A DNA stretch of 54,623 nt from Acidobacteriota bacterium (lineage in GTDB: Bacteria; Acidobacteriota; Terriglobia; Bryobacterales; Bryobacteraceae). Each line of letters opens with the position of its first letter. The stretch's first letter is position 1. Below, one piece after another: positions 1 to 24,860 of this stretch. The stretch lies in NCBI GenBank assembly GCA_016871015.1, contig VFZX01000007.1:1-54623 (forward strand), written 5' to 3'. The notes beneath the pieces were generated by a model. The model saw only the letters and a program-made list of their open reading frames with translations, did not search any database and was not told the origin of the DNA. Both the position numbers and the translations under genes were made by a program.

Positions 1-720
1 CTACGCGTACCCGAGGACGCAACGGATATCGTGGCGGAGGACATTCAGTATCCCGGCAAGGCTGGAACGCTCTTTGCGCACCTGGCCAAGCCGAAAGATC
101 TGACCGAGGCACTTCCGGCGGTGATTGTCATTCACGAGAACCGCGGACTGGTGCCGCACCACCGCGACATGACGCGGCGGTTCGCACGGGCCGGATTCAT
201 CGGCTTGGGCGTGGATCTGCTGTCGCGCCAGGGTGGCACGCGATCGATACCCGAAGCTCAGCTAACCCAGGCCTATGGCCGGACGCTTGTCCCCGAGCGG
301 CTTGAGGACCTGCAATCGTCGGTCGACTACCTGAAGTCGGAGGGGTTCGTCCGTGCGGACCGGATTGGCGTGACCGGCTTCTGCGCGGGCGGCGCCAACA
401 CCTACCTGCTGGCGTTCAACTCCAAGGACATCGCGGCGGCTGCTCCGTTCTACGGGGCTCCTCCAATGCCGATTCCCGACATCACCGGAGTCGCTCCGCT
501 TTGCGTGTTCCTGGGTGACGTGGATCCGGGCACCAACGCCAACATCCCGGCGCTGCTCACAGCGATCAATGCGGCCCGTGCTTCCGCCGAGATGCACATG
601 TGGGCTGGGGCACGGCACGCGTTCATGAACGACACTGGCGCCGCCTTCAACGCGGCTGCCGCGTGCACATCCTGGGACATCCTGCTTGGATTTTTCCGCC
701 GGCACTTGTTCCGGGCTTAG
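1..720 (+). CDS. Dienelactone hydrolase family protein, 5'-truncated by the window edge
   Basis: An alpha/beta hydrolase of the dienelactone hydrolase (DLH) family, which hydrolyses ester or lactone bonds in small molecules. The reading frame is open to base 1, and the residues before the GTG at 31 still read like the family (VPEDATDIV), so the gene very probably begins upstream. Counting from that GTG, the nucleophile is Cys118 in GFCAGG (usually GFCFGG), the acid is Asp163 or Asp165 in FLGDVDPG, and the base is His196 in GARHAFMN. The IHENRGL oxyanion-region motif is at 34-40. The triad is complete, so the enzyme should be active. The true substrate cannot be told from sequence. No partner gene is visible; the next gene starts 126 nt downstream. 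Confidence 0.85.
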   Translation, partial: LRVPEDATDIVAEDIQYPGKAGTLFAHLAKPKDLTEALPAVIVIHENRGLVPHHRDMTRRFARAGFIGLGVDLLSRQGGTRSIPEAQLTQAYGRTLVPERLEDLQSSVDYLKSEGFVRADRIGVTGFCAGGANTYLLAFNSKDIAAAAPFYGAPPMPIPDITGVAPLCVFLGDVDPGTNANIPALLTAINAARASAEMHMWAGARHAFMNDTGAAFNAAAACTSWDILLGFFRRHLFRA

Positions 721-846
721 AGGGCCAGTAACGGATTCCCCAAGAAAAAGCTCAGCGCGGGGGCCCGAGTTGTGGCAAGATGGTAGGGCCTGGGTTGGGC
801 GACCTGGGCCCAATTCAAACCTCACCAGGAGGGTGCGTTTAACATC

Positions 847-1254
847 ATGCAAGAGCTCATCAATTCGATGGTCAAATTCTCCGCCGCCATGGCCATGTTC
901 AGCATGGAACAGATGCGGACTTCCGCCAAAATGGCGATGGAGCCGAAGGCGGCCATGTGGAAGTTCAAGGATTCCCTCGACGCCGTGACCGCGGCGATCA
1001 ACAGCAAGCTTGAAAAAGGGAATCAGGAGACAGCCGACAAGATCTCCAAGACCGGCAGCGACATCATGGACCGGACCATGACGGTGGTCAGCGATTCCAC
1101 CACGGACCTCAAGGAGATGTTGCAAGCTGGCACAGAGATGCTGCGAAAAGCGTCGGAAACAATGGTAGAGGCGCTGGCTAAGATGACGGATCAGGCAAAG
1201 GCGGCCGCGGGGGAGCCCCAAGCGGCGGCAGAAGCCCTGTCGCCGAAGTCCTAA
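847..1254 (+). CDS. Phasin-like small helical protein
   Basis: A 135-aa protein that is almost all predicted amphipathic helix, very rich in Met, Ala and Lys, with no signal peptide. Composition and length resemble phasins, which coat polyhydroxyalkanoate granules or other lipid surfaces. An Ala/Pro-rich tail (about 118-135) is also phasin-like. The AGGAGG at 827-832 is a strong Shine-Dalgarno sequence but sits 14 nt from the ATG, which is unusually far. It is the first gene of a same-strand run with a UbiB-like pseudokinase, a cNMP-binding protein, two START-fold proteins and two ArsA-like ATPases, a context consistent with a lipid-surface protein. The family call is inferred from composition; it could be another coiled-coil protein. 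Confidence 0.5.
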   Translation: MQELINSMVKFSAAMAMFSMEQMRTSAKMAMEPKAAMWKFKDSLDAVTAAINSKLEKGNQETADKISKTGSDIMDRTMTVVSDSTTDLKEMLQAGTEMLRKASETMVEALAKMTDQAKAAAGEPQAAAEALSPKS

Positions 1255-1311
1255 CCCCTCTGGCTACGGATCCTCCGGAGCCGGCCATCAGCGCCCCAAC
1301 GGAAGAATTAG

Positions 1312-2757
1312 ATGGCGGAGCCGTCTCGAAACCCAAGCGGCGGACCAGGAGCCGGCGCAAATCTGACTAGTCTATTCAGCGGCGAAGATCCTCTGTCCGG
1401 CGCGTTTGCGGTGTTCCTTACCTACCGGTCGGACGTGTTGCGGGCCGGCCAGGTGGCCGGGCTTCGCACGCGCCGGGCAAATACGCTTCCCGCTATTGCG
1501 TTTGCGGCCGCAGGTGTGGCGCTGGAAGCGACACCCTGCTGGAGCACCGCGTCCACCTGTGCCTACAAAGGCCAGTGGAACGGCCGGACGGTCGTGCTTC
1601 AAGCAACCCGGGACCCGATTGGCACGAGCGATTGGGCGGGGTTTGACAAGAGGGTCCGCGAAGAGTTCACGGGCGCGATCGAGCCCGAGCGGAGCGGGCA
1701 GCTACTGGCGCAGTTCCGCGAATGGATGGCGCTCGGAAACGACCCGGTTCGCGAGCGGGCCTACCTCGAGGCCATTGCCTCGCTCGAGGGCAAGGTGGCC
1801 GCCGGCTACCCGAAGGTGGTGCCGGAGTTGTGCGGAGGCAAGGTACTGGCTTGGGAATGGGTGGAAGGAGAGCCCGTGTCACGGCTGCTCGCCCAGGGCT
1901 CGAAGCAGGCCGCCGGGCAGTTGGCCGAACTTGTGCTGGAACAGATCTTGACGTTGAACGTCATTGACGCTGAACTCGATCTCGATCAGATCGTCTCCGC
2001 AGGCGGAAGGCTGGTGGTCCGGAGGGCAAACCGTTTGGTCGCGGTTCCCGCGCCGCAGGTCCGGACGGCGATGCGGTATGTCGCGGCGGTGCTGTCCGGC
2101 AACTCGCCGGTGGCGGCGCGGGCGCTGCTGAAGCTCGCCTGGGGCCGTGATGCCGCCGGACAACTGGAATCGAAGCTCGTCGATGAGCTGGCCCATCTGA
2201 CACCCGAGTTGAAAGGCCGCTACCGGTTTCCGCCGAGCGCCGCGGTGTTTGAGAGCAATTGGAGGGCGCTGGCCCGGCTGAACGGATCGGCTCCGTTGTT
2301 CCTGGACAGCATGCACCGGAACCTGATTGCAGTTGGATACTGGAACTCGGAGATTCTCCCCGGCACAGATGCGATCGCCGACTCGCAGCCCGCGGTGCTG
2401 GGACGGCTGGCGCGCCAAAGGCTCGGGAATCTATTCGACCGCCAGACGATCGGAGAGTGGGTGGGAGGCTCGGGCCTTCTGGTCTTCGAAACGTTCCGGC
2501 AGATGAGCCGGTTCGCCGATGAATTCCGGGAGAACGAACTGGCGGTCGGCGTGGACGCCAGAGGCGGCGAAGAGGACCCGGCAGGAGGCAACCAGGTGGT
2601 GCGCCAGTGGATTCTCGCCGTGGTATTGTTTGTGGTATTTGCGGTGGCCGTGCGCTGGGCGGCGATGGCGCCGGCGCCCTGGGCAGCGGCATGCGCGGGG
2701 ATCGCAATCGCCGCGGCGGGAGGCCTCTTCTGGTCTGTTGCGCGCAGCTCGGGATAG
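1312..2757 (+). CDS. UbiB/ABC1-like membrane pseudokinase
   Basis: A 481-aa protein resembling the UbiB/ABC1/COQ8 family, atypical kinases that assist quinone and isoprenoid-lipid metabolism. The clearest match is YPKVVPELCGGKVLAWEWVEG (166-186), equivalent to the family's P-x-V-y-p-E-l-c-x-x-r-V-L-t-m-E-w-l-e-G segment. Two C-terminal membrane helices (about 428-475) match UbiB topology. Catalytic elements are missing: the VAVK lysine position reads VVLQ (Gln97), the HADPHPGN catalytic loop is replaced by NVIDAELD (216-223), and no DFG is visible. The N-terminal KxGQ motif is also not clear. It probably acts as a membrane scaffold or lipid-handling protein, not a kinase. GGAAG 8-9 nt before the ATG is a plausible ribosome site. 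Neighbours include COQ10-like START proteins. Confidence 0.7.
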   Translation: MAEPSRNPSGGPGAGANLTSLFSGEDPLSGAFAVFLTYRSDVLRAGQVAGLRTRRANTLPAIAFAAAGVALEATPCWSTASTCAYKGQWNGRTVVLQATRDPIGTSDWAGFDKRVREEFTGAIEPERSGQLLAQFREWMALGNDPVRERAYLEAIASLEGKVAAGYPKVVPELCGGKVLAWEWVEGEPVSRLLAQGSKQAAGQLAELVLEQILTLNVIDAELDLDQIVSAGGRLVVRRANRLVAVPAPQVRTAMRYVAAVLSGNSPVAARALLKLAWGRDAAGQLESKLVDELAHLTPELKGRYRFPPSAAVFESNWRALARLNGSAPLFLDSMHRNLIAVGYWNSEILPGTDAIADSQPAVLGRLARQRLGNLFDRQTIGEWVGGSGLLVFETFRQMSRFADEFRENELAVGVDARGGEEDPAGGNQVVRQWILAVVLFVVFAVAVRWAAMAPAPWAAACAGIAIAAAGGLFWSVARSSG

Positions 2758-2784
2758 TGTGAGACCCTGAATGGAATAGGAATC

Positions 2785-2790
2785 TAGAGT
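2785..2790 (+). promoter_or_regulatory. Possible -10 hexamer TAGAGT
   Basis: TAGAGT lies directly against the ATG at 2791 and exactly 6 nt before the in-frame ATG at 2797. That is the spacing seen at other presumed leaderless starts in the window. AGGAA at 2778-2782 could instead serve as a weak ribosome site for 2791. Confidence 0.3.
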
Positions 2791-3720
2791 ATGGAAATGA
2801 AACAGTTGCTCCAGAGAGTCGATTACTTTAAGGGCCTGGACGGCAAAGCGCTGGACCGGCTGGCCGACGCAGCGATTCTCCGGAACTATCCTGCGGGCGA
2901 GGTCATCGTCAAGCAAGGCGAGACAGGCCTCGGTCTGTACGTGATCACGCGCGGCCGCGTGAGGGTCGAAAAGGAAATGCCGAACGGACAGCCCCCGCTC
3001 AAATTGAACGAGCTGCCGACCAAGGAGACATCCGCCTTCGCCGAGATGGCGGTCATTGACAATCAGCCCCGCTCGGCCACTGTCCGCTCGATCGAGGAGA
3101 CCGAGTGTATTTTGCTCACGCGCGACAGCATGACCAAGCTGATGCAGAAGTACCCTGAAATTGCCGTGGGCATCGCACGCGATCTCGCGCAGAAGCTCAG
3201 GGCGGCGAACGACCTGCTCGCCGCGACCGGACAAAAGGGAAATGCACCGGCGCCGGCTGCCGGGGCCGCTCCGCCGAGCCCAGCCCCACCGCCGGCCGCT
3301 GAGGGCACAACCGACGCCCCGAAGGCGGAGTCCAACGGAAACGCGCCGGCTGAAGGCTTCAAGGCGAGCGCCCAGAAAACGCTGCTCAGCGTCTTCGACC
3401 GGCTTTACACGATGAAGGCTCTGACCAAATTCTCGGTTGCCGTGATCGGGTGTCCGGTGGAGGGCGTGGCCGCGGATTCGATCGGAGAGATCCGGCTGGG
3501 CGAGGTGAAGGCGGTGATCCTGCCGAGCCGGTCGAAGACCGGGCTGCGGCTGCAGGCGCTCGAATCCGGCGAGTTCACGCTCGATGTGTTGCGGCCGGAG
3601 GGCGGCGGGCCCATCCGCTTCGGCCCCATGCCCCTTGATCCCGGCGAAGACTGCCGCCTGGATCTGAGCAGCGGAGAGCCCATGCTCTACCGGAACGGCA
3701 TTCCGGCCGGGGGAAGGTAG
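2791..3720 (+). CDS. Cyclic-nucleotide-binding domain protein with novel C-terminal region
   Basis: A 309-aa cytoplasmic protein. Residues about 10-140 form a CRP-type cyclic-nucleotide-binding beta-barrel with an intact phosphate-binding cassette: Glu85 in FAEMAV and Arg94 in QPRSATV. It therefore probably still binds cAMP, cGMP or a related ligand. A Pro/Ala-rich linker (about 150-188) leads to a C-terminal domain (about 190-309) that I do not recognise. There is no helix-turn-helix, so it is not a CRP-type transcription factor. The gene ends 2 nt before the next START-protein gene. It is probably a ligand-sensing regulator of the lipid/ArsA cluster. The alternative start is the ATG at 2797. 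Confidence 0.8.
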   Translation: MEMKQLLQRVDYFKGLDGKALDRLADAAILRNYPAGEVIVKQGETGLGLYVITRGRVRVEKEMPNGQPPLKLNELPTKETSAFAEMAVIDNQPRSATVRSIEETECILLTRDSMTKLMQKYPEIAVGIARDLAQKLRAANDLLAATGQKGNAPAPAAGAAPPSPAPPPAAEGTTDAPKAESNGNAPAEGFKASAQKTLLSVFDRLYTMKALTKFSVAVIGCPVEGVAADSIGEIRLGEVKAVILPSRSKTGLRLQALESGEFTLDVLRPEGGGPIRFGPMPLDPGEDCRLDLSSGEPMLYRNGIPAGGR

Positions 3721-3722
3721 CG

Positions 3723-4253
3723 ATGCCCCAATTCACGATCAACCGGCAGCACGCCGAGCCCGTAGGGGCGTCAGCGGAGCTGGTGTATGACGTGCTGACC
3801 GACTACAACACCTACGGCGAGTGGATGCCGCTGATAGCCAAGGGCCACCTGATGGCCCGGGAGGGCGATCTGGCAATTGTCGAGTTCGACCTGACGAGCG
3901 GCGCCCACTTCACGGTGGAGGGCATTCACACCCGGAATCGAATGGTGCTGACGCGTCCGATTGCGGGGGACTGCCCGTTTACTAAGATGCAGTGGGACAT
4001 ACAACCCGAGGACTCTGGAAAGTCGCGGGTTAGTCTGGCGGTTCGCCTCCGCCCGAACGTCAAGATGCTGCCAAGCGCTTTCGGCTGGTGCAAGGGATCC
4101 GTGCGGGCCTTCACGGCCCACCTCTCGGCTTATTCGGCCGACGTTTCGGTGTCAGGCCCGGATGGGGAGAAGCTCCTGGAAGTCATGGAGACCGAGGACG
4201 GTCTGGTCTGTTGGATGAATGGCAAAAAATACGTGATGAAGGAGTCCCAATGA
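3723..4253 (+). CDS. SRPBCC/START-fold protein (COQ10-like), paralog 1
   Basis: A 176-aa SRPBCC (polyketide cyclase/dehydrase, COQ10-like) protein. The family forms a hydrophobic cavity for lipids, quinones or polyketides. Diagnostic residues are VYDVLTDYNTYGEWMP (21-36) at the first helix, followed by the long curved sheet and a C-terminal helix (about 119-137). After the domain comes a tail (150-176, LLEV..T..G...W.NGKKY) that also occurs on the next gene's product. There is no signal peptide. It starts 2 nt after the cNMP protein and overlaps the next start by ATGA, so translation is coupled. The ligand is unknown; beside a UbiB-like protein, an isoprenoid lipid or quinone is a reasonable guess. 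Confidence 0.85.
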   Translation: MPQFTINRQHAEPVGASAELVYDVLTDYNTYGEWMPLIAKGHLMAREGDLAIVEFDLTSGAHFTVEGIHTRNRMVLTRPIAGDCPFTKMQWDIQPEDSGKSRVSLAVRLRPNVKMLPSAFGWCKGSVRAFTAHLSAYSADVSVSGPDGEKLLEVMETEDGLVCWMNGKKYVMKESQ

Positions 4254-4837
4254 TCAAGGCCGTCATCAACGTTGCCGCGCCGCGGTACCACGTCTACCAG
4301 GTCTTGACCGATTACGAAAAGTACAAGCAGTGGCTCCCCAACTGCACCGGCTCCGTGATCGCCTCGCGCGAAGGCAATCGCGTGGACACCGACATCACCG
4401 TCAACATGATGAAGACGGTGACCATGGGCTTGCGGTTTGAGTCCGATGGGGCGCATTCCCTGACATTCAGCCTGCTCAAGAGCAGCGATCTGAAGGGGTA
4501 CTCGGGTTCTTACCGCCTGATGGATGCGGCTGACGGAGTGGGCACGGTGGTGATCACGGAGATGGATCTCGACGCGGGCGGCATGGTCCCGCGGTTCATG
4601 GTGGACCGCATGGCCAAGAAGTCGATCGACGACACCGGCAATGCACTCCGCGAGTACATCAAGAAGCTTCCCCCTCCGGCCGCGCCGCCTCCGGCTGCGG
4701 CTGGCGCCGTTGAGGCTGCCAAACCAGCTCCGGTGGCCGCGCGCCCCAAGCGGGCAAGGCGTGTGTTGCGCGTGCGCAAGACCGCATCCGGTTATCAGAT
4801 TTGGTACATGGGCCGGGAGTTCGAGGTTAAGGGCTAG
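4250..4837 (+). CDS. SRPBCC/START-fold protein (COQ10-like), paralog 2
   Basis: A 195-aa SRPBCC protein. The ATG at 4250 is chosen because it overlaps the previous stop (ATGA) and places the first beta strand (MIKAVINVAAP) exactly at the N-terminus; the frame is open further upstream. VYQVLTDYEKYKQWLPN (15-31) is the same lipid-binding-family signature as in the preceding gene. A Pro/Ala-rich linker (141-170) carries a C-terminal 25-residue tail (171-195, VLRVRKT..GYQIWYMGREF) that aligns without gaps to the tail of paralog 1. The two are probably ancient duplicates that bind related lipids or form a pair. The gene is followed 9 nt later by the first ArsA-like ATPase. Confidence 0.85.
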   Translation: MIKAVINVAAPRYHVYQVLTDYEKYKQWLPNCTGSVIASREGNRVDTDITVNMMKTVTMGLRFESDGAHSLTFSLLKSSDLKGYSGSYRLMDAADGVGTVVITEMDLDAGGMVPRFMVDRMAKKSIDDTGNALREYIKKLPPPAAPPPAAAGAVEAAKPAPVAARPKRARRVLRVRKTASGYQIWYMGREFEVKG

Positions 4838-4846
4838 TCCGCAGGC

Positions 4847-5743
4847 GTGCAGTCGCGAATCGCGGTCTTCTGTGGAAAGGGCGGAGTCGGAAAGACAACA
4901 CTTGCCCTGGCGCTCGGACTGAGGCAGGCGAACCGGGGAAGACGCGCGGTGGTGGTGACTTCGCATCCGTTGCCGGAACTCGCGCTGGCCGTATCGCTCA
5001 CGGGGCTTGCGGCGCGGCTCCCAGAGGCGGCGAAGAACCTGTTTGTGGTGCACCTGGATTCCAAGGAGCTGCTGGCCGATCTGGTCCGGCGCAGTTTTAC
5101 CATGCCGCTGCTCGCCGACCGGATCATCGCGAGCAGCATCTATCAGAGTCTGGTCGAGGTGGCGCCCGGACTCAAGGAGTTCTATTTCCTGTCGCGCCTT
5201 CAGCAGCTTGCCGAGCGGAAACAGGGCCTGCGCGACGAGCCGTTGAGCTACGATCTGCTGATCTGGGACGCGCCGGCAACGGGCCATTTCCTGGGCACGC
5301 TGCGGGCGGCGCGCAGCTTCGAGGCGTACCTCAGCGGTCCGTTGGCCGCCGCGGGAGCTGAGGTGGGACGCTTCTTCTCGAGTCCTGGCCGCATCACCAT
5401 CCTCCCGGTGAGCACGCCGGAAGAGATGGCGCTGCAAGAGATGTCGGAGATGTGCGCCGAGCTCCAGGAGAACTACCAGCTTCGTCCCGCCACGATCCTG
5501 CTGAACATGGCGTCGCCGGTGCTCAATGCGACCGAGGGCCAGGTGGCCGCAATCGAGGAGGATGCGGCGAATCCGGCGTTGCGGTTCGCCCTGGGCCGGG
5601 CGCGGCTGGAACGGGAGCGCGCCGGGCAAGTCGAATCGGCCACAGGTACGCTGGTGACGGCGGTCACACGGATCCGGCACACCAGCAGCGATATCGACCT
5701 GCTCGAATCATTAGGCGCGCAACTGGACGGGCTTCCAGTATGA
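4847..5743 (+). CDS. ArsA/Get3-like ATPase, subunit 1
   Basis: A 298-aa deviant-Walker-A ATPase of the ArsA/Get3/MinD superfamily; members load tail-anchored proteins, anions or other cargo. The P-loop GKGGVGKTT (10-18) has the signature lysine Lys11. Switch II is WDAPATGH (140-147, ArsA: DTAPTGH). The switch-I region reads TSHPLPEL where ArsA has STDPA, so the catalytic aspartate is His40. The start is GTG at 4847, close to the P-loop as usual. The last bases overlap the second ATPase start (ATGA). No metal-binding cysteine triad of arsenite pumps is visible, so arsenic export is unlikely. It probably forms a heterodimer with the next gene product. Confidence 0.85.
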   Translation: MQSRIAVFCGKGGVGKTTLALALGLRQANRGRRAVVVTSHPLPELALAVSLTGLAARLPEAAKNLFVVHLDSKELLADLVRRSFTMPLLADRIIASSIYQSLVEVAPGLKEFYFLSRLQQLAERKQGLRDEPLSYDLLIWDAPATGHFLGTLRAARSFEAYLSGPLAAAGAEVGRFFSSPGRITILPVSTPEEMALQEMSEMCAELQENYQLRPATILLNMASPVLNATEGQVAAIEEDAANPALRFALGRARLERERAGQVESATGTLVTAVTRIRHTSSDIDLLESLGAQLDGLPV

Positions 5744-6753
5744 AAATTACAGTGTTCGTGGGGACGGGCGGTGTCGGTAAGACATCAGTCGCCGCCGCCA
5801 CGGGACTGGCCCGGGCGAGGGCCGGACACCGGTGTCTGGTGCTGACCATTGATCCGGCGCGGCGGCTGCGCACTGCCTTGGGGCTGACCGGAGCGCCCGA
5901 AGAACAGCAGGTCCGGCTGGATCCAGCGGCGCCAGGGGAACTGTGGGCCGCGATGCTCGATGTCCGTGCGACACTCGACGAGGCGGTCCGCCGTTATGGA
6001 GATCCGGAGCTGCAGCCGCGGATCCTGGCCCATCCAATCTATGCGGCCATCGCCGATTCCCTTGCCGGAATGCAGGAGCTGATGGCGGTGGAGCGGATCG
6101 ACCAGTTGCGGTTGCGGGGCTTTGAGGAGATCATCGTCGACACCGCGCCTTCGCGGCACGCACTCGAGTTCCTGGACAAGCCGGTGGCGTTCGCCAATCT
6201 CGCCGATTCATCGTGGGTGAAGCTGATCGGCCGGACCTACAAGTTCGTCGAGGCGACCGGGATGCTGTCGGTGGGCCGGGCGACGATGGAAATCTACCGC
6301 AAGGTGGAGTCCATTCTCGGAGCGCGGCTGGTGAGTGATGTGCTCGACTTCTATTCGCTGTTTGTATCGATCGCCGAGGGCTACGGCGAGCGGGCGCGCA
6401 AGACTGTGGCGATGCTGCGCGATCCGGCGGTAACGGGCTTCCGCGTGGTCACCGCGCCGCAGAAGGCGGTCCGTGACGCCCGCTTCTTCACCGAGGCGCT
6501 CGCCGGACGGAAGTTCCGCGCCGAGGCGTTCTATGTGAACCGGATGTGGCCTTATGATCCGGGCGCGGGGGGTGGAACGGGCCTGGCAGGTGAGTTGATC
6601 GAGTGGTACCGCGACGAGCGATCCGCCCAGCAGGCGGGCTTTGAGGCGCTGCGGGCCGAACTGCGCGTTCCGCTGGCGGCGCTGCCAGAGCTTGACCGGG
6701 ATGTGGAAGGCGTGGCCGACCTCGAGCGGATCGCCCGCAACCTACTTCCGTAG
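5740..6753 (+). CDS. ArsA/Get3-like ATPase, subunit 2
   Basis: A 337-aa ArsA/Get3-like ATPase. The ATG at 5740 is chosen for the ATGA overlap and because MKITVFVGTGGVGKTS places the P-loop at residues 8-16; the open frame upstream has no family similarity. The signature-lysine position is Thr9 (GTGGVGKTS), so this subunit cannot supply the trans lysine, but switch I keeps its aspartate (Asp38 in LTIDPARRL). Switch II is VDTAPSRH (133-140). These features are the mirror image of subunit 1. Paired ArsA-like ATPases of this kind occur in actinobacteria as well. The gene converges with, and overlaps by 12 nt, the DUF2490 gene on the other strand. Confidence 0.85.
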   Translation: MKITVFVGTGGVGKTSVAAATGLARARAGHRCLVLTIDPARRLRTALGLTGAPEEQQVRLDPAAPGELWAAMLDVRATLDEAVRRYGDPELQPRILAHPIYAAIADSLAGMQELMAVERIDQLRLRGFEEIIVDTAPSRHALEFLDKPVAFANLADSSWVKLIGRTYKFVEATGMLSVGRATMEIYRKVESILGARLVSDVLDFYSLFVSIAEGYGERARKTVAMLRDPAVTGFRVVTAPQKAVRDARFFTEALAGRKFRAEAFYVNRMWPYDPGAGGGTGLAGELIEWYRDERSAQQAGFEALRAELRVPLAALPELDRDVEGVADLERIARNLLP

Positions 6754-7428
6754 CTTCCAGGGTGGCGCAAAGACCTGGAACATGAGCGTGTGGTTGTGTT
6801 CGAGGACCCGGCCATTGCGCTGCTGCAGCGTGTGCTCCATGAAGCCGGCCTCGACGCGCCAGCCACTTGTGAAGCTGTGTCCCAGGAGGGCCATCAGCCG
6901 GTTTTGATCAAACGCCTTTGGGGGCTTGTTCGGCGCGATGTTGAACATGATCTCGTCGCCGGCGGTCCAGTACCAGTGCTTCGACCCGGCGATCGGACGC
7001 CGGATCATGAGGCGGTAACGGAAGCGGTGCTGGTAGCGGTGCGTCGGGCCGATCCAGCGCTCTTCCCAACGGAAGCGGTGCGACAGGCGGGTGACGCCGC
7101 GCGTCTGGTCCCACAGCAGGTCCTGATATAAGCGGTTCTCGTCGAAGTCCGCCGCGACCGGCGCTTTGCCATAGCGGTAGGTGCGGATGAACCCGTATCC
7201 GGCGCCGGCCTTGAGCCCGGGCCGGATCTGTTTGAGAAGCGAAGTCCGGACGAGATACTGCTGCGGTTCAGCGATCGCTTCATTGCGTCTGGCCTGGAAC
7301 TCGGTCCACCAGGACCAGCCGTTGCCGAGTCCATACTCGCCAAAGTAGTTGAACCAGCCGTTTACGTTTGGAACGCCTTCCGCATGAAGGACCGCTGAAA
7401 ACACGCACACCAGGACCAAAAGCCGCAA
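6742..7428 (-). CDS. DUF2490-type outer-membrane beta-barrel protein
   Basis: A 228-aa protein with a short signal peptide (MRLLVLVCVFSAVLHA, cleavage near 16), a regular alternation of Trp/Tyr/Arg-rich strands and a final aromatic strand (HTLMFQVFA). This matches DUF2490 proteins, predicted outer-membrane barrels of unknown function. Motifs such as RFRWEERW and HRFRYRLMIR are typical. The start is TTG at 7428, because no better in-frame start exists before the signal peptide. A TACAAT hexamer upstream on the minus strand, near 7450, could drive it. The 3' end overlaps the ArsA-like gene by 12 nt in convergent orientation. Confidence 0.75.
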   Translation of the reverse strand: MRLLVLVCVFSAVLHAEGVPNVNGWFNYFGEYGLGNGWSWWTEFQARRNEAIAEPQQYLVRTSLLKQIRPGLKAGAGYGFIRTYRYGKAPVAADFDENRLYQDLLWDQTRGVTRLSHRFRWEERWIGPTHRYQHRFRYRLMIRRPIAGSKHWYWTAGDEIMFNIAPNKPPKAFDQNRLMALLGHSFTSGWRVEAGFMEHTLQQRNGRVLEHNHTLMFQVFAPPWKLRK

Positions 7429-23045: not shown

Positions 23046-24860
23046 TCAGATGGTACCCGCTTGCTTGCCTCCTCCGTGAAGCTCGTTCTTCAGGCGGTTG
23101 TAGCGCGCCACGATCGTGTCGATCTGCGCCTCGGCGGTCCGTTTGCCGCGGGCGATGATCTCGGGCGCCTGGTCAAACTCGAGCATCGTGATGCCGCTCA
23201 TCAGCGGCGCCATGACGATGTCAGCGGCGGACTCCGCCCGCGCCTGTCCGATTTCATGGCCCATCACGAACATGCAGCGCATCATCACGTCGAAGGCGTT
23301 GAACGGATACCGGCGCCGGACGGGAGCTTCGTCGATCGGTGACATCGCGTTGACGGCCACGGCAAAGTCCGCGCCCATCGCGCGGATCAGCTTTACCGGC
23401 ACCGGATCCATGATGCCAGCGTCGACCAGCGTCGCCTTGTCGCGTCCGAGCGGCGGAAGCAAGCCTGGCAGAGCGATCGACGCGCGGATGCACTGGACCA
23501 GCGTCCCGTCCTTGATCGCGTACTCCTTGCCTTTGGTAATGTCGACCGCATTGGCCCAGTACGGCGTATCTGCTTCATTCACGGCACGGCCGCCAAAGTA
23601 GCTTTCAAAGACCTTCAACGCCACCTTTTCATTCACCAGGCACATCTTCCACAACCGCCACTCGATGAACCGCCGCGTGCGCGTGCGCCAGTAGTCGGCG
23701 ATGCTGGTCATTTCGTCGATCGACATGCCGGTGGACCGCAACGCGCCGATCACGCTGCCCATCGAACATCCGGAGAGCAGATCGACCGGGAGCCCGGCTT
23801 TTTCGATCACCGACAGGACGCCGATGTGCGCCCAGCCCCAGGCCGCGCCGCCCCCTAAAGCAACTCCCACCTGGATCCGGCCGATGTGGCGGGCGATCGA
23901 GTCCACCGTGCGCTTGAACCGCGGCGAGACCCCGCGCTCCTCAGCGCCGGCCGCGTCCTGCAACAACTGGTTGTGGCCATCCAATTCCGGTAGCGAAGGG
24001 CGCGCTGCGCTCTGGACCACGAAGTAGCTCGGGGCAGCGGCGCTGCCGGTGGCAGGCGTCAGCGGGACCGGATCCCCGGGGCCGAGAAGATAGCCCTGGA
24101 AGTTTGTGAGCCCTGCGATGGCCGGGCCAATCGCCGCGGCGTGCTGCCCGCAGGGATTCAGCACGATGATGTCGTGCGCGCGGCGCCATTCGGTGAGCTG
24201 CGCGGCGAGACGAGCCCGCATGTCGGCGTCAGGGGTGCGGACCGGCCAGCAGCACTGGCTCGTGTATCCATCGGTCCGCTGGACTGCTTCTCCGCCCTCT
24301 GCGCCCAGTTCGACCAGCAGCGTCTGGCGGCCGGTCTCTCCGCCAAGCGAAGCCGCCAGGCAGCGGGCAAACGCGCGCGGAGCCTCAAAATGCGGTCCGT
24401 TGTGCAGCAGGACCACCGGGAGATCCGCCGCCTTCGCCTTGCCGATCACCGTACGCTGCAGGCGCTCGGCAGTGACTTGCAGCAGGCCGCGCAGGATCGC
24501 GTCACGCCGCTCGGGGAGCAGGTTTACCGAATCGCGCGGCAGGACCAGCAACTCCGCATCGAGCTCGACCTCGACATCAGCGATCGCCGCCCGGCCGGTG
24601 ATGAGCGACAGCTCACCAAAAATCTCGGGCGGTTGCAGATGTGCCACCGTCTCCCGCACCTCGCCGCGATTGATGCGAACCGCCATGCGGCCACTGCGGA
24701 TGAAGTACACCGCAGGGCTCGTGGCGTCCTGCTTAAGCACGACCGCGCCGGCCGGATGCCGCTCGACATGGAACAGCGTGGCGATGTCGCCAAGCTGGTC
24801 CAGCGGCACGTCCCGGAAGACGGCGGTTGTCCTCAGAAAATCGCGAATCTCGGTTTGCAT
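23046..24860 (-). CDS. NTE-like patatin phospholipase with N-terminal cyclic-nucleotide-binding domain
   Basis: A 604-aa protein similar to neuropathy-target-esterase-type patatins. A cNMP-binding barrel (about 10-130) has FGELSLITGRAAIADVEV at the phosphate cassette; the usual RSA arginine is replaced (GRAAIADV), so ligand binding may be lost. Residues about 145-285 resemble a degenerate P-loop/ParA-like Rossmann fold without Walker A. The patatin domain (330-530) has oxyanion loop GGGAAWGWAHIG, nucleophile Ser366 in GCSMG and Asp480 in VDAGIMDP. It should act as a lysophospholipase or esterase at the membrane. It lies 13 nt after moxR and just before the MBL gene. Confidence 0.9.
   Translation of the reverse strand: MQTEIRDFLRTTAVFRDVPLDQLGDIATLFHVERHPAGAVVLKQDATSPAVYFIRSGRMAVRINRGEVRETVAHLQPPEIFGELSLITGRAAIADVEVELDAELLVLPRDSVNLLPERRDAILRGLLQVTAERLQRTVIGKAKAADLPVVLLHNGPHFEAPRAFARCLAASLGGETGRQTLLVELGAEGGEAVQRTDGYTSQCCWPVRTPDADMRARLAAQLTEWRRAHDIIVLNPCGQHAAAIGPAIAGLTNFQGYLLGPGDPVPLTPATGSAAAPSYFVVQSAARPSLPELDGHNQLLQDAAGAEERGVSPRFKRTVDSIARHIGRIQVGVALGGGAAWGWAHIGVLSVIEKAGLPVDLLSGCSMGSVIGALRSTGMSIDEMTSIADYWRTRTRRFIEWRLWKMCLVNEKVALKVFESYFGGRAVNEADTPYWANAVDITKGKEYAIKDGTLVQCIRASIALPGLLPPLGRDKATLVDAGIMDPVPVKLIRAMGADFAVAVNAMSPIDEAPVRRRYPFNAFDVMMRCMFVMGHEIGQARAESAADIVMAPLMSGITMLEFDQAPEIIARGKRTAEAQIDTIVARYNRLKNELHGGGKQAGTI
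23050..23055 (-). promoter_or_regulatory. -10-like hexamer TACCAT before the MBL gene
   Basis: TACCAT (minus strand) lies exactly 6 nt before the ATG at 23043, within the last codons of the patatin gene. Confidence 0.4.

Follow-up and report, generated by a model that had tools for sequence, protein, structure and literature searches.

A conserved Acidobacteriota gene set joining an asymmetric ArsA/Get3-type ATPase pair with UbiB-family, START-fold and cyclic-nucleotide-binding proteins

The systems closest to the one described here are the UbiB/COQ8 family, the mycobacterial pair of ArsA-fold subunits BagA/BagB (6BS3-6BS5), plastoglobules and cyanoglobules, the COQ10/RatA START proteins, and cyclic-nucleotide-binding proteins of the CRP/PKG type. 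The portions of the published reports drawn on here state that UbiB/COQ8 ATPase activity is stimulated by analogs of coenzyme Q (CoQ) intermediates (PMC7263595), that ABC1K3 is present in cyanobacterial prenyl-lipid droplets (PMC12923008), that bagAB has been connected in mycobacteria with tolerance of glycerol and of nitric oxide (PMC10597346), and that yeast GET clients include hairpin proteins (PMC9123286). Our study concerns positions 1 to 54,623 of contig VFZX01000007.1 (C7) of the Acidobacteriota draft genome GCA_016871015.1 (8.66 Mb in 720 contigs). In this stretch of 54,623 nucleotides (nt), referred to below as the window, seven genes encode a phasin-like protein (PHAS), a degenerate UbiB protein (UBIBdeg), a cyclic-nucleotide-binding protein (CNMP), two START-fold proteins (START1 and START2) and two ArsA/Get3-type ATPases (ARSA1 and ARSA2). 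Sequence comparisons among related genomes give good support to a single conserved system of eight families in Acidobacteriota, seven of which are represented here; the eighth is a motif-complete UbiB partner, which in this genome lies on contig C105 (locus L198). In the open-access literature, we found no paper joining Get3 and UbiB and none combining four of the terms for the module's families and host phylum and, among the 15 of 237 matches listed, no mention of UbiB in papers on phasins, granules or operons.

A first-pass annotation, made from the letters of the window alone, had proposed one system here and had named confinement of the gene order to close relatives as the observation that would speak against it. 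That condition does not hold: related clusters are found in other genera of Acidobacteriota as well as in one genome of another class (G226), and the order is conserved in the window, L089-L092, L117, L118, L121, L123 and L124, the other class included. Identity of the relatives' proteins to those of the window falls to between 25% (UbiB-like) and 55% (START2); because similar content and order recur in such divergent relatives, the cluster is not a product of chance. When the phylum was searched with the window's UBIBdeg alone, matches came from 2 of 247 genomes, namely the window's own and G226, whose locus reads UbiB partner, PHAS, UBIBdeg, ARSA1, ARSA2, with neither START nor CNMP present there. 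Of 200 genomes of the same family, 16 were matched by a two-sequence ARSA1 alignment, with scores of 329-581 bits; below these, the best score was 55 bits. A contig scan with a 16-sequence ARSA1 alignment, covering the best 80 of 158 relatives and based on two peptide patterns that divergent relatives may escape, gave 21 Acidobacteria-type loci at 43-64% identity, followed by a drop to 34% (E 2e-25); 16 of these lie in genomes already found (the window's own is not among the matches listed) and five are new.

The window, L089 and L092 share the order PHAS-UBIBdeg-CNMP-START1-START2-ARSA1-ARSA2, and L090 reads UbiB partner-PHAS-UBIBdeg-START1-START2-CNMP-ARSA1-ARSA2, as does L091 from UBIBdeg onward, its locus beginning at a contig end. 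Among the new loci, L117 and L124, both beginning at a contig end, have PHAS-UBIBdeg-START1-START2-ARSA1-ARSA2, L118 and L123 have CNMP-UbiB partner-PHAS-PHAS-UBIBdeg-START1-START2-ARSA1(-ARSA2), and L115 has the ARSA pair alone. The motif-complete UbiB stands immediately upstream of PHAS in 12 loci. The order is PHAS-START1-START2-ARSA1-ARSA2 in L097, with CNMP convergent, and START1-START2-ARSA1(-ARSA2) in L096 and L099, accompanied by a divergent gene of 142 amino acids (aa) and another ABC1 protein, with CNMP convergent in L099. In these last two loci (L099:10462-12468 and L096:2750-4261), the 142-aa protein and the ABC1 protein, which has altered motifs, are divergent from START1 and appear to stand in for PHAS-UBIBdeg. 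The presence of an ArsA pair is not by itself a sign of the module, since phmmer found other module genes beside only one of 20 ArsA regions of the phylum (L036-L055), which was L036 of G226; in this check, the gene caller missed the ArsA genes of L038 and L046, and single-sequence phmmer may miss divergent partners. Mirror-tree distance correlations (r 0.65-0.98) carry little weight because they partly reflect shared species history.

The families also occur together where they are not linked. Besides ARSA1 in 16 of the 200 genomes, the searches at E <= 1e-20 gave START2 in 15 genomes and UBIBdeg in 13; among the matches listed, START2 and UBIBdeg occur only inside the 16 ARSA1 genomes and in none of the 184 others, where full scores were given to a part of the first-look candidates of each genome and the 200 genomes are taken to be the same draw in every search because the handles agree in the rows listed. 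With kinship ignored, simple hypergeometric values come to about 1e-21 for START2 and 6e-18 for UBIBdeg, and the products of within-genus permutations, on the genomes listed for the ARSA1 search, are 1.6e-4 and 4.8e-4, respectively. The ARSA pair stands apart from the other genes in nine of 22 loci, counting the window and the 21 above (L093, L094, L095, L098, L100-L103 and L115). The search covered all of these genomes but that of L115, and each of the eight carries START2 (seven, not G342), UBIBdeg (seven, not G350) or both. The other genes form loci of their own: UbiB partner-PHAS-UBIBdeg-START1-START2-CNMP in G271, UbiB partner-PHAS-UBIBdeg-CNMP-START1-START2 in G438, G443, G415 and G423 (START2 of G415 is cut by the contig end), UbiB partner-PHAS-UBIBdeg in G386 and G342, and CNMP-START1-START2 in G350. 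Separate contigs in draft genomes are no proof of genomic distance; in G271, the ARSA pair and the remaining module both lie more than 100 kb inside long contigs, and in G386, UbiB partner-PHAS-UBIBdeg lies about 8 kb from the ARSA pair on the same contig. Conserved order and co-occurrence, even unlinked, thus bear out the proposal of one system.

UBIBdeg shares the fold of COQ8/ADCK3/UbiB. It scores 18.2 bits against Pfam ABC1, below the cut-off of 22.9, and a profile comparison aligns it with motif-complete UbiB over its full length (probability 98.5, E 3.8e-15, 455 columns, 13% identity). Its AlphaFold model (10 sequences; mean predicted local distance difference test score, pLDDT, 76) has COQ8A as the first Foldseek match (E 8.1e-10), and a profile search of the PDB returned two ABC1 sequences below E 1e-3 (entry groups 5YJZ and 7CY2). 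Of the usual UbiB motifs (KxGQ, catalytic loop and DFG), the KxGQ Lys is lost in all nine UBIBdeg sequences that span it, and none of the 10 sequences has the DFG Asp, which agrees with the degeneracy implied when the protein was first labelled a pseudokinase. Unlike COQ8/ADCK3/UbiB, UBIBdeg also lacks the A-rich loop, and it is found in the company of ATPases, START proteins and a paralogue whose motifs are complete. A hydrophobic segment ends 3-8 residues before its C-terminus in 10 of 10 sequences and belongs to a two-segment hairpin in 9 of 10 (the L092 protein being read from a truncated start).

The loci examined hold 18 genes for partner-type UbiB. All 18 have KxGQ, the VAVK-type Lys and HADLHPAN, and YVDFG was found in 15, the DFG pattern having stopped at another site in the other three. 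G261 and G280 are without UBIBdeg and have another ABC1 protein near START1, in which Arg replaces the KxGQ Lys; Asn replaces the DFG Asp in the G261 protein, and that of G280 is cut at this site. Both genomes also carry a separate motif-complete UbiB, and the pairing of an intact with a degenerate UbiB may have two origins. In nine loci (Table 1), the gene immediately upstream of the motif-complete UbiB encodes a small protein of some 93-96 aa (114 aa as called in L198), a candidate ninth family of the system; the two tested had no Pfam match. Proteins with an acyltransferase domain adjoin the motif-complete UbiB at L036:5840-7552 (G226) and L189:11065-12588 (G271), the latter with an additional epimerase match below cut-off. 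Second UbiB-UBIBdeg pairs are present in G423 and G438 (L205:6665-9890 and L206:7922-11162), with no PHAS call between their members, and in G342 a gene that looks by eye to be of the START superfamily (L203:6617-7018) precedes the small gene and UbiB.

Both ATPases pass the Pfam ArsA_ATPase cut-off (66.9 and 82.4 bits). Against the NCBIfam models, ARSA1 (P0005) reaches 66.4 bits for BagA (cut-off 400) and 78.6 for BagB (cut-off 521), and ARSA2 (P0007) 217.3 bits for BagB, both proteins lying below both cut-offs; the Get3 model TIGR00345 gives 69.5 and 82.1 bits against 135, and the CxxC zinc motif of Get3 is absent in 16 of 16 ARSA1 and 15 of 15 ARSA2 sequences. For both proteins, the best solved relative is chain B of 6BS3 (E 9.6e-45 for ARSA2), which we take to be Rv3680, and the Rv3679 chain was matched as well. 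The two proteins, labelled ArsA ATPases at first pass, have the BagA/BagB-type pair, and not arsenite pumps, as their nearest relatives. As in BagA/BagB, two non-identical ArsA-fold subunits are encoded side by side, the second without the signature Lys; chain B of 6BS3 likewise lacks it (GAGGVGKTT) and has D-P-A in the alignment.

The losses in the two subunits are complementary. ARSA1 keeps the P-loop signature Lys in 16 of 16 sequences, and its switch-I Asp is replaced in all of them (His in 15, Ala in one); in ARSA2, the signature Lys has become Thr and the Asp-Pro is kept, each in 15 of 15. The signature Lys acts across the dimer. The switch-I Asp positions the attacking water in Get3, as stated in the portion drawn on of PMC10248533. 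Given these complementary losses, an ARSA1-ARSA2 heterodimer would have one complete composite ATP site. In other loci of the phylum, loss of the signature Lys is general among ARSA2-like genes: it is missing from all 15 that exceed 130 bits against the ARSA2 profile, and is retained in four ArsA genes with lower scores (60-88 bits). The switch-I Asp is present in some genes that resemble ARSA1 but do not belong to the module.

START1 and START2 score 42.2 and 40.8 bits against Pfam PF03364 (Polyketide_cyc, START; cut-off 23.4) and are homologous over their full length, tail included (E 7.7e-13); a W-x-x-G motif near the C-terminus is present in 24 of 24 aligned START1/START2 sequences. START folds usually bind lipids. 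The COQ10-like label first given to them proved unspecific, since their scores for the RatA model NF007999 are 14.5 and 16.9 bits against a cut-off of 258; they share the Polyketide_cyc match with COQ10/RatA and differ from it in this score, in the tail and in being two tandem paralogues.

CNMP scores 69.1 bits for cNMP_binding, over the Pfam cut-off, and the pocket Glu and Arg-Ser-Ala are conserved in 9 of 9 sequences, as in CRP/PKG-type proteins and in line with the cyclic-nucleotide (cNMP) sensor proposed earlier; in contrast to these proteins, it has no matched helix-turn-helix (HTH) or kinase domain. In its model (mean pLDDT 72.6), the C-terminal domain is beta-rich, and the top 50 Foldseek matches listed, given without their ranges, are all cNMP-binding proteins. 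A role as a CRP/FNR transcription factor was considered and rejected, as no HTH family matched and the C-terminal part is predicted to be beta-rich. Elsewhere in the window, a 604-aa protein (23046-24860, - strand) weakly resembles CNMP, with 30% identity across 24453-24809. Class III cyclases are present in 17 of 17 genomes carrying an ARSA1 orthologue; an FHA-cyclase adjoins UbiB in G366, and a propeller-type cyclase lies one gene from START2 in G350.

As first annotated, the seven genes lie on one strand and fill 847-6753 (Table 1), with intergenic gaps of 57, 33, 2, -4, 9 and -4 nt, the last five genes overlapping or standing at most 9 nt apart. The start of START2 is at 4250 and not at the longest-ORF start of 4088, and that of ARSA2 at 5740 and not at 5452. 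Upstream of PHAS lies a dienelactone-hydrolase-type gene (31-720), and a DUF2490 gene (6742-7428, - strand) is convergent with ARSA2, overlapping its end by 12 nt. A scan of 600-7000 was uninformative, with 2 promoter-like sites against 0.8 expected and 2 terminator-like sites against 4.3 expected.

Table 1. Positions and predicted nature of the module genes in the window and of the candidate additional family.
Feature	Position	Strand	Description
PHAS	847..1254	+	135-aa amphipathic phasin-like helical protein, candidate surface/coat protein; high helical moment, no transmembrane (TM) segment
UBIBdeg	1312..2757	+	Predicted pseudokinase of the UbiB/ABC1 family, degenerate in its motifs; membrane hairpin at the C-terminus
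CNMP	2791..3720	+	Cyclic-nucleotide-binding domain joined by a low-confidence linker to a beta-rich C-terminal domain; no match to a DNA-binding domain
START1	3723..4253	+	START/SRPBCC-fold protein, W-x-x-G tail
START2	4250..4837	+	START/SRPBCC protein, basic linker, W-x-x-G tail
ARSA1	4847..5743	+	BagA/Get3-type ATPase subunit; P-loop signature Lys present, switch-I Asp lost (S-H-P)
ARSA2	5740..6753	+	BagB-type ATPase subunit; signature Lys lost (GTGGVGKT), switch-I Asp-Pro present; longer segment after switch II
Small upstream protein	L198:8365-8709 (contig C105, window's genome); also L191, L192, L193, L194, L196, L199, L200, L203		Candidate ninth family

A plausible reading of these sequences is that the system, ATPase pair included, acts on a hydrophobic lipid of the membrane, for which menaquinone, one of its precursors or another prenyl lipid is the likeliest candidate, and we regard this as quite possible, though short of probable. 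The motif-complete UbiB ATPase and the hairpin-tailed UBIBdeg would form an active/scaffold pair at a membrane or lipid droplet, whose surface PHAS would coat or bend; START1 and START2 would carry the lipid between the membrane and a partner, docking through their W-x-x-G tails; and CNMP would sense a cyclic nucleotide and switch the complex, so that the module may be under cyclic-nucleotide-responsive control. ARSA1 and ARSA2 would form a BagA/BagB-like heterodimer, with the Lys of the former and the Asp of the latter in its single composite ATP site, and could deliver the hairpin-tailed UBIBdeg, a candidate client, to the membrane. The sequences themselves show the family identities, the catalytic motifs kept and lost, the membrane hairpin, the complementary losses in the ATPases, the conserved order, the co-occurrence of unlinked genes and the common START tail; the physical complex, the lipid, the ATPase client and the direction of regulation are inferred. 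The fuller proposal is possible but more tentative: an undescribed machine, controlled by a cyclic nucleotide, that moves or stores a prenyl lipid and in which a Get3-type heterodimer works for both the active/degenerate pair of UbiB proteins and the two STARTs with their tails. Compared only by how they work, plastoglobules and cyanoglobules likewise combine a UbiB-family kinase with lipid-binding and coat proteins, as described in the portion drawn on of PMC12923008; they have fibrillins and an ABC1K kinase, and the module has instead Get3-type ATPases, a phasin-like protein and proteins of the START fold. The first-pass annotation is thus partly supported: one conserved system, the degenerate UbiB and the cNMP protein are borne out, the COQ10-like label is unspecific, a polyhydroxyalkanoate (PHA) granule is unlikely, and the UbiB partner, the common START tail and the asymmetry of the ATPase pair were not part of that account.

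Several observations weigh against the lipid-handling reading. The START relation to COQ10 is weak, and cyclase presence says little because cyclase families are common. At the position that aligns with the Asp of the catalytic loop, all 10 UBIBdeg sequences have Asp or Glu, so complete loss of activity is only a prediction, and C-terminal hydrophobic segments above the TM threshold also occur in two of four motif-complete UbiB proteins. Sub-modules can be absent: START2 was not found in G342, nor in G226 (a genome 77% complete), and G350 is without UBIBdeg and without a full-length ABC1 match (the best, partial, has 37.8 bits), which weakens the specific proposal that the ATPase pair might deliver the hairpin-tailed UbiB. 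Finally, a high-score ARSA1 orthologue is present in only 2 of 247 genomes of the phylum, which makes the module accessory and not a general quinone pathway.

Protein targeting is the strongest of the alternatives, although we hold it unlikely: ARSA1-ARSA2 would be a GET-like chaperone for the hairpin-tailed UbiB, with the STARTs as co-chaperones and not lipid carriers. It draws on the fact that the nearest solved relative of both ATPases comes from the Rv3679-containing complex 6BS3, that UBIBdeg, with its C-terminal hairpin, is the sole family of the seven with predicted TM segments, and that 103 residues separate switch II from the motif matched after it in ARSA2 (measurable in 12 of 15) against 47 in ARSA1 (8 of 16). 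However, G350 has the ATPase pair, START and CNMP in a genome lacking the proposed client, so UbiB cannot be the sole client of the pair, and the lipid binding usual for START folds fits co-chaperones poorly.

A storage granule, of PHA or neutral lipid, with a phasin coat, proteins and regulators is improbable. PHAS itself lies below every Pfam cut-off (12.8 bits for Phasin_2, cut-off 24.9). One of 12 family members passes the Phasin_2 cut-off at 31.7 bits, and an acyltransferase lies beside UbiB in G226 and G271; however, PhaC_N (PF07167), the only synthase model searched, is absent in 16 of the 17 ARSA1-orthologue genomes, the window's included, and G386 has a single match of 29.0 bits. PHAS is therefore probably not a PHA coat, and a PHA granule is unlikely; neutral-lipid droplets are still conceivable. 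That the genes are neighbours through common ancestry alone, with no joint function, has little to recommend it: all 21 loci above the score gap are Acidobacteria-type, but the distribution is patchy within genera, with presence and absence matched, the families co-occur without linkage, and, among the matches listed at E <= 1e-20, neither START2 nor UBIBdeg occurs in the 184 other genomes without ARSA1. We see hardly any prospect for a cyclic-nucleotide-triggered, Pycsar-like anti-phage system, as P0003 matches the PADLOC PycTIR model and two TIR-effector models (46-52 bits) by its cNMP domain only, no TIR domain was matched, the CNMP family has no TM segment, no nucleotide cyclase is among the seven proteins and no PADLOC model matches any of the other six. 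It is equally far-fetched that the two ATPases export arsenite or a metalloid and that their neighbours have nothing to do with them, for beyond the ArsA_ATPase matches the arsA equivalog TIGR04291 gives 32.6 and 46.9 bits against 650, and the conserved partners are other families (ArsB, ArsR and ArsD were not searched for).

To our knowledge, both UbiB-family chemistry and the cargo of bacterial Get3-like pairs such as BagA/BagB are open. Our study joins UbiB and bacterial Get3 with START proteins and a cyclic-nucleotide sensor in one set whose members co-occur even when unlinked. The module names candidate partners, namely the degenerate UbiB as a client and the START tails as docking sites, together with a predicted composite ATP site; if the proposed reading is true, the work of UbiB and that of the bacterial Get3 proteins would be connected.

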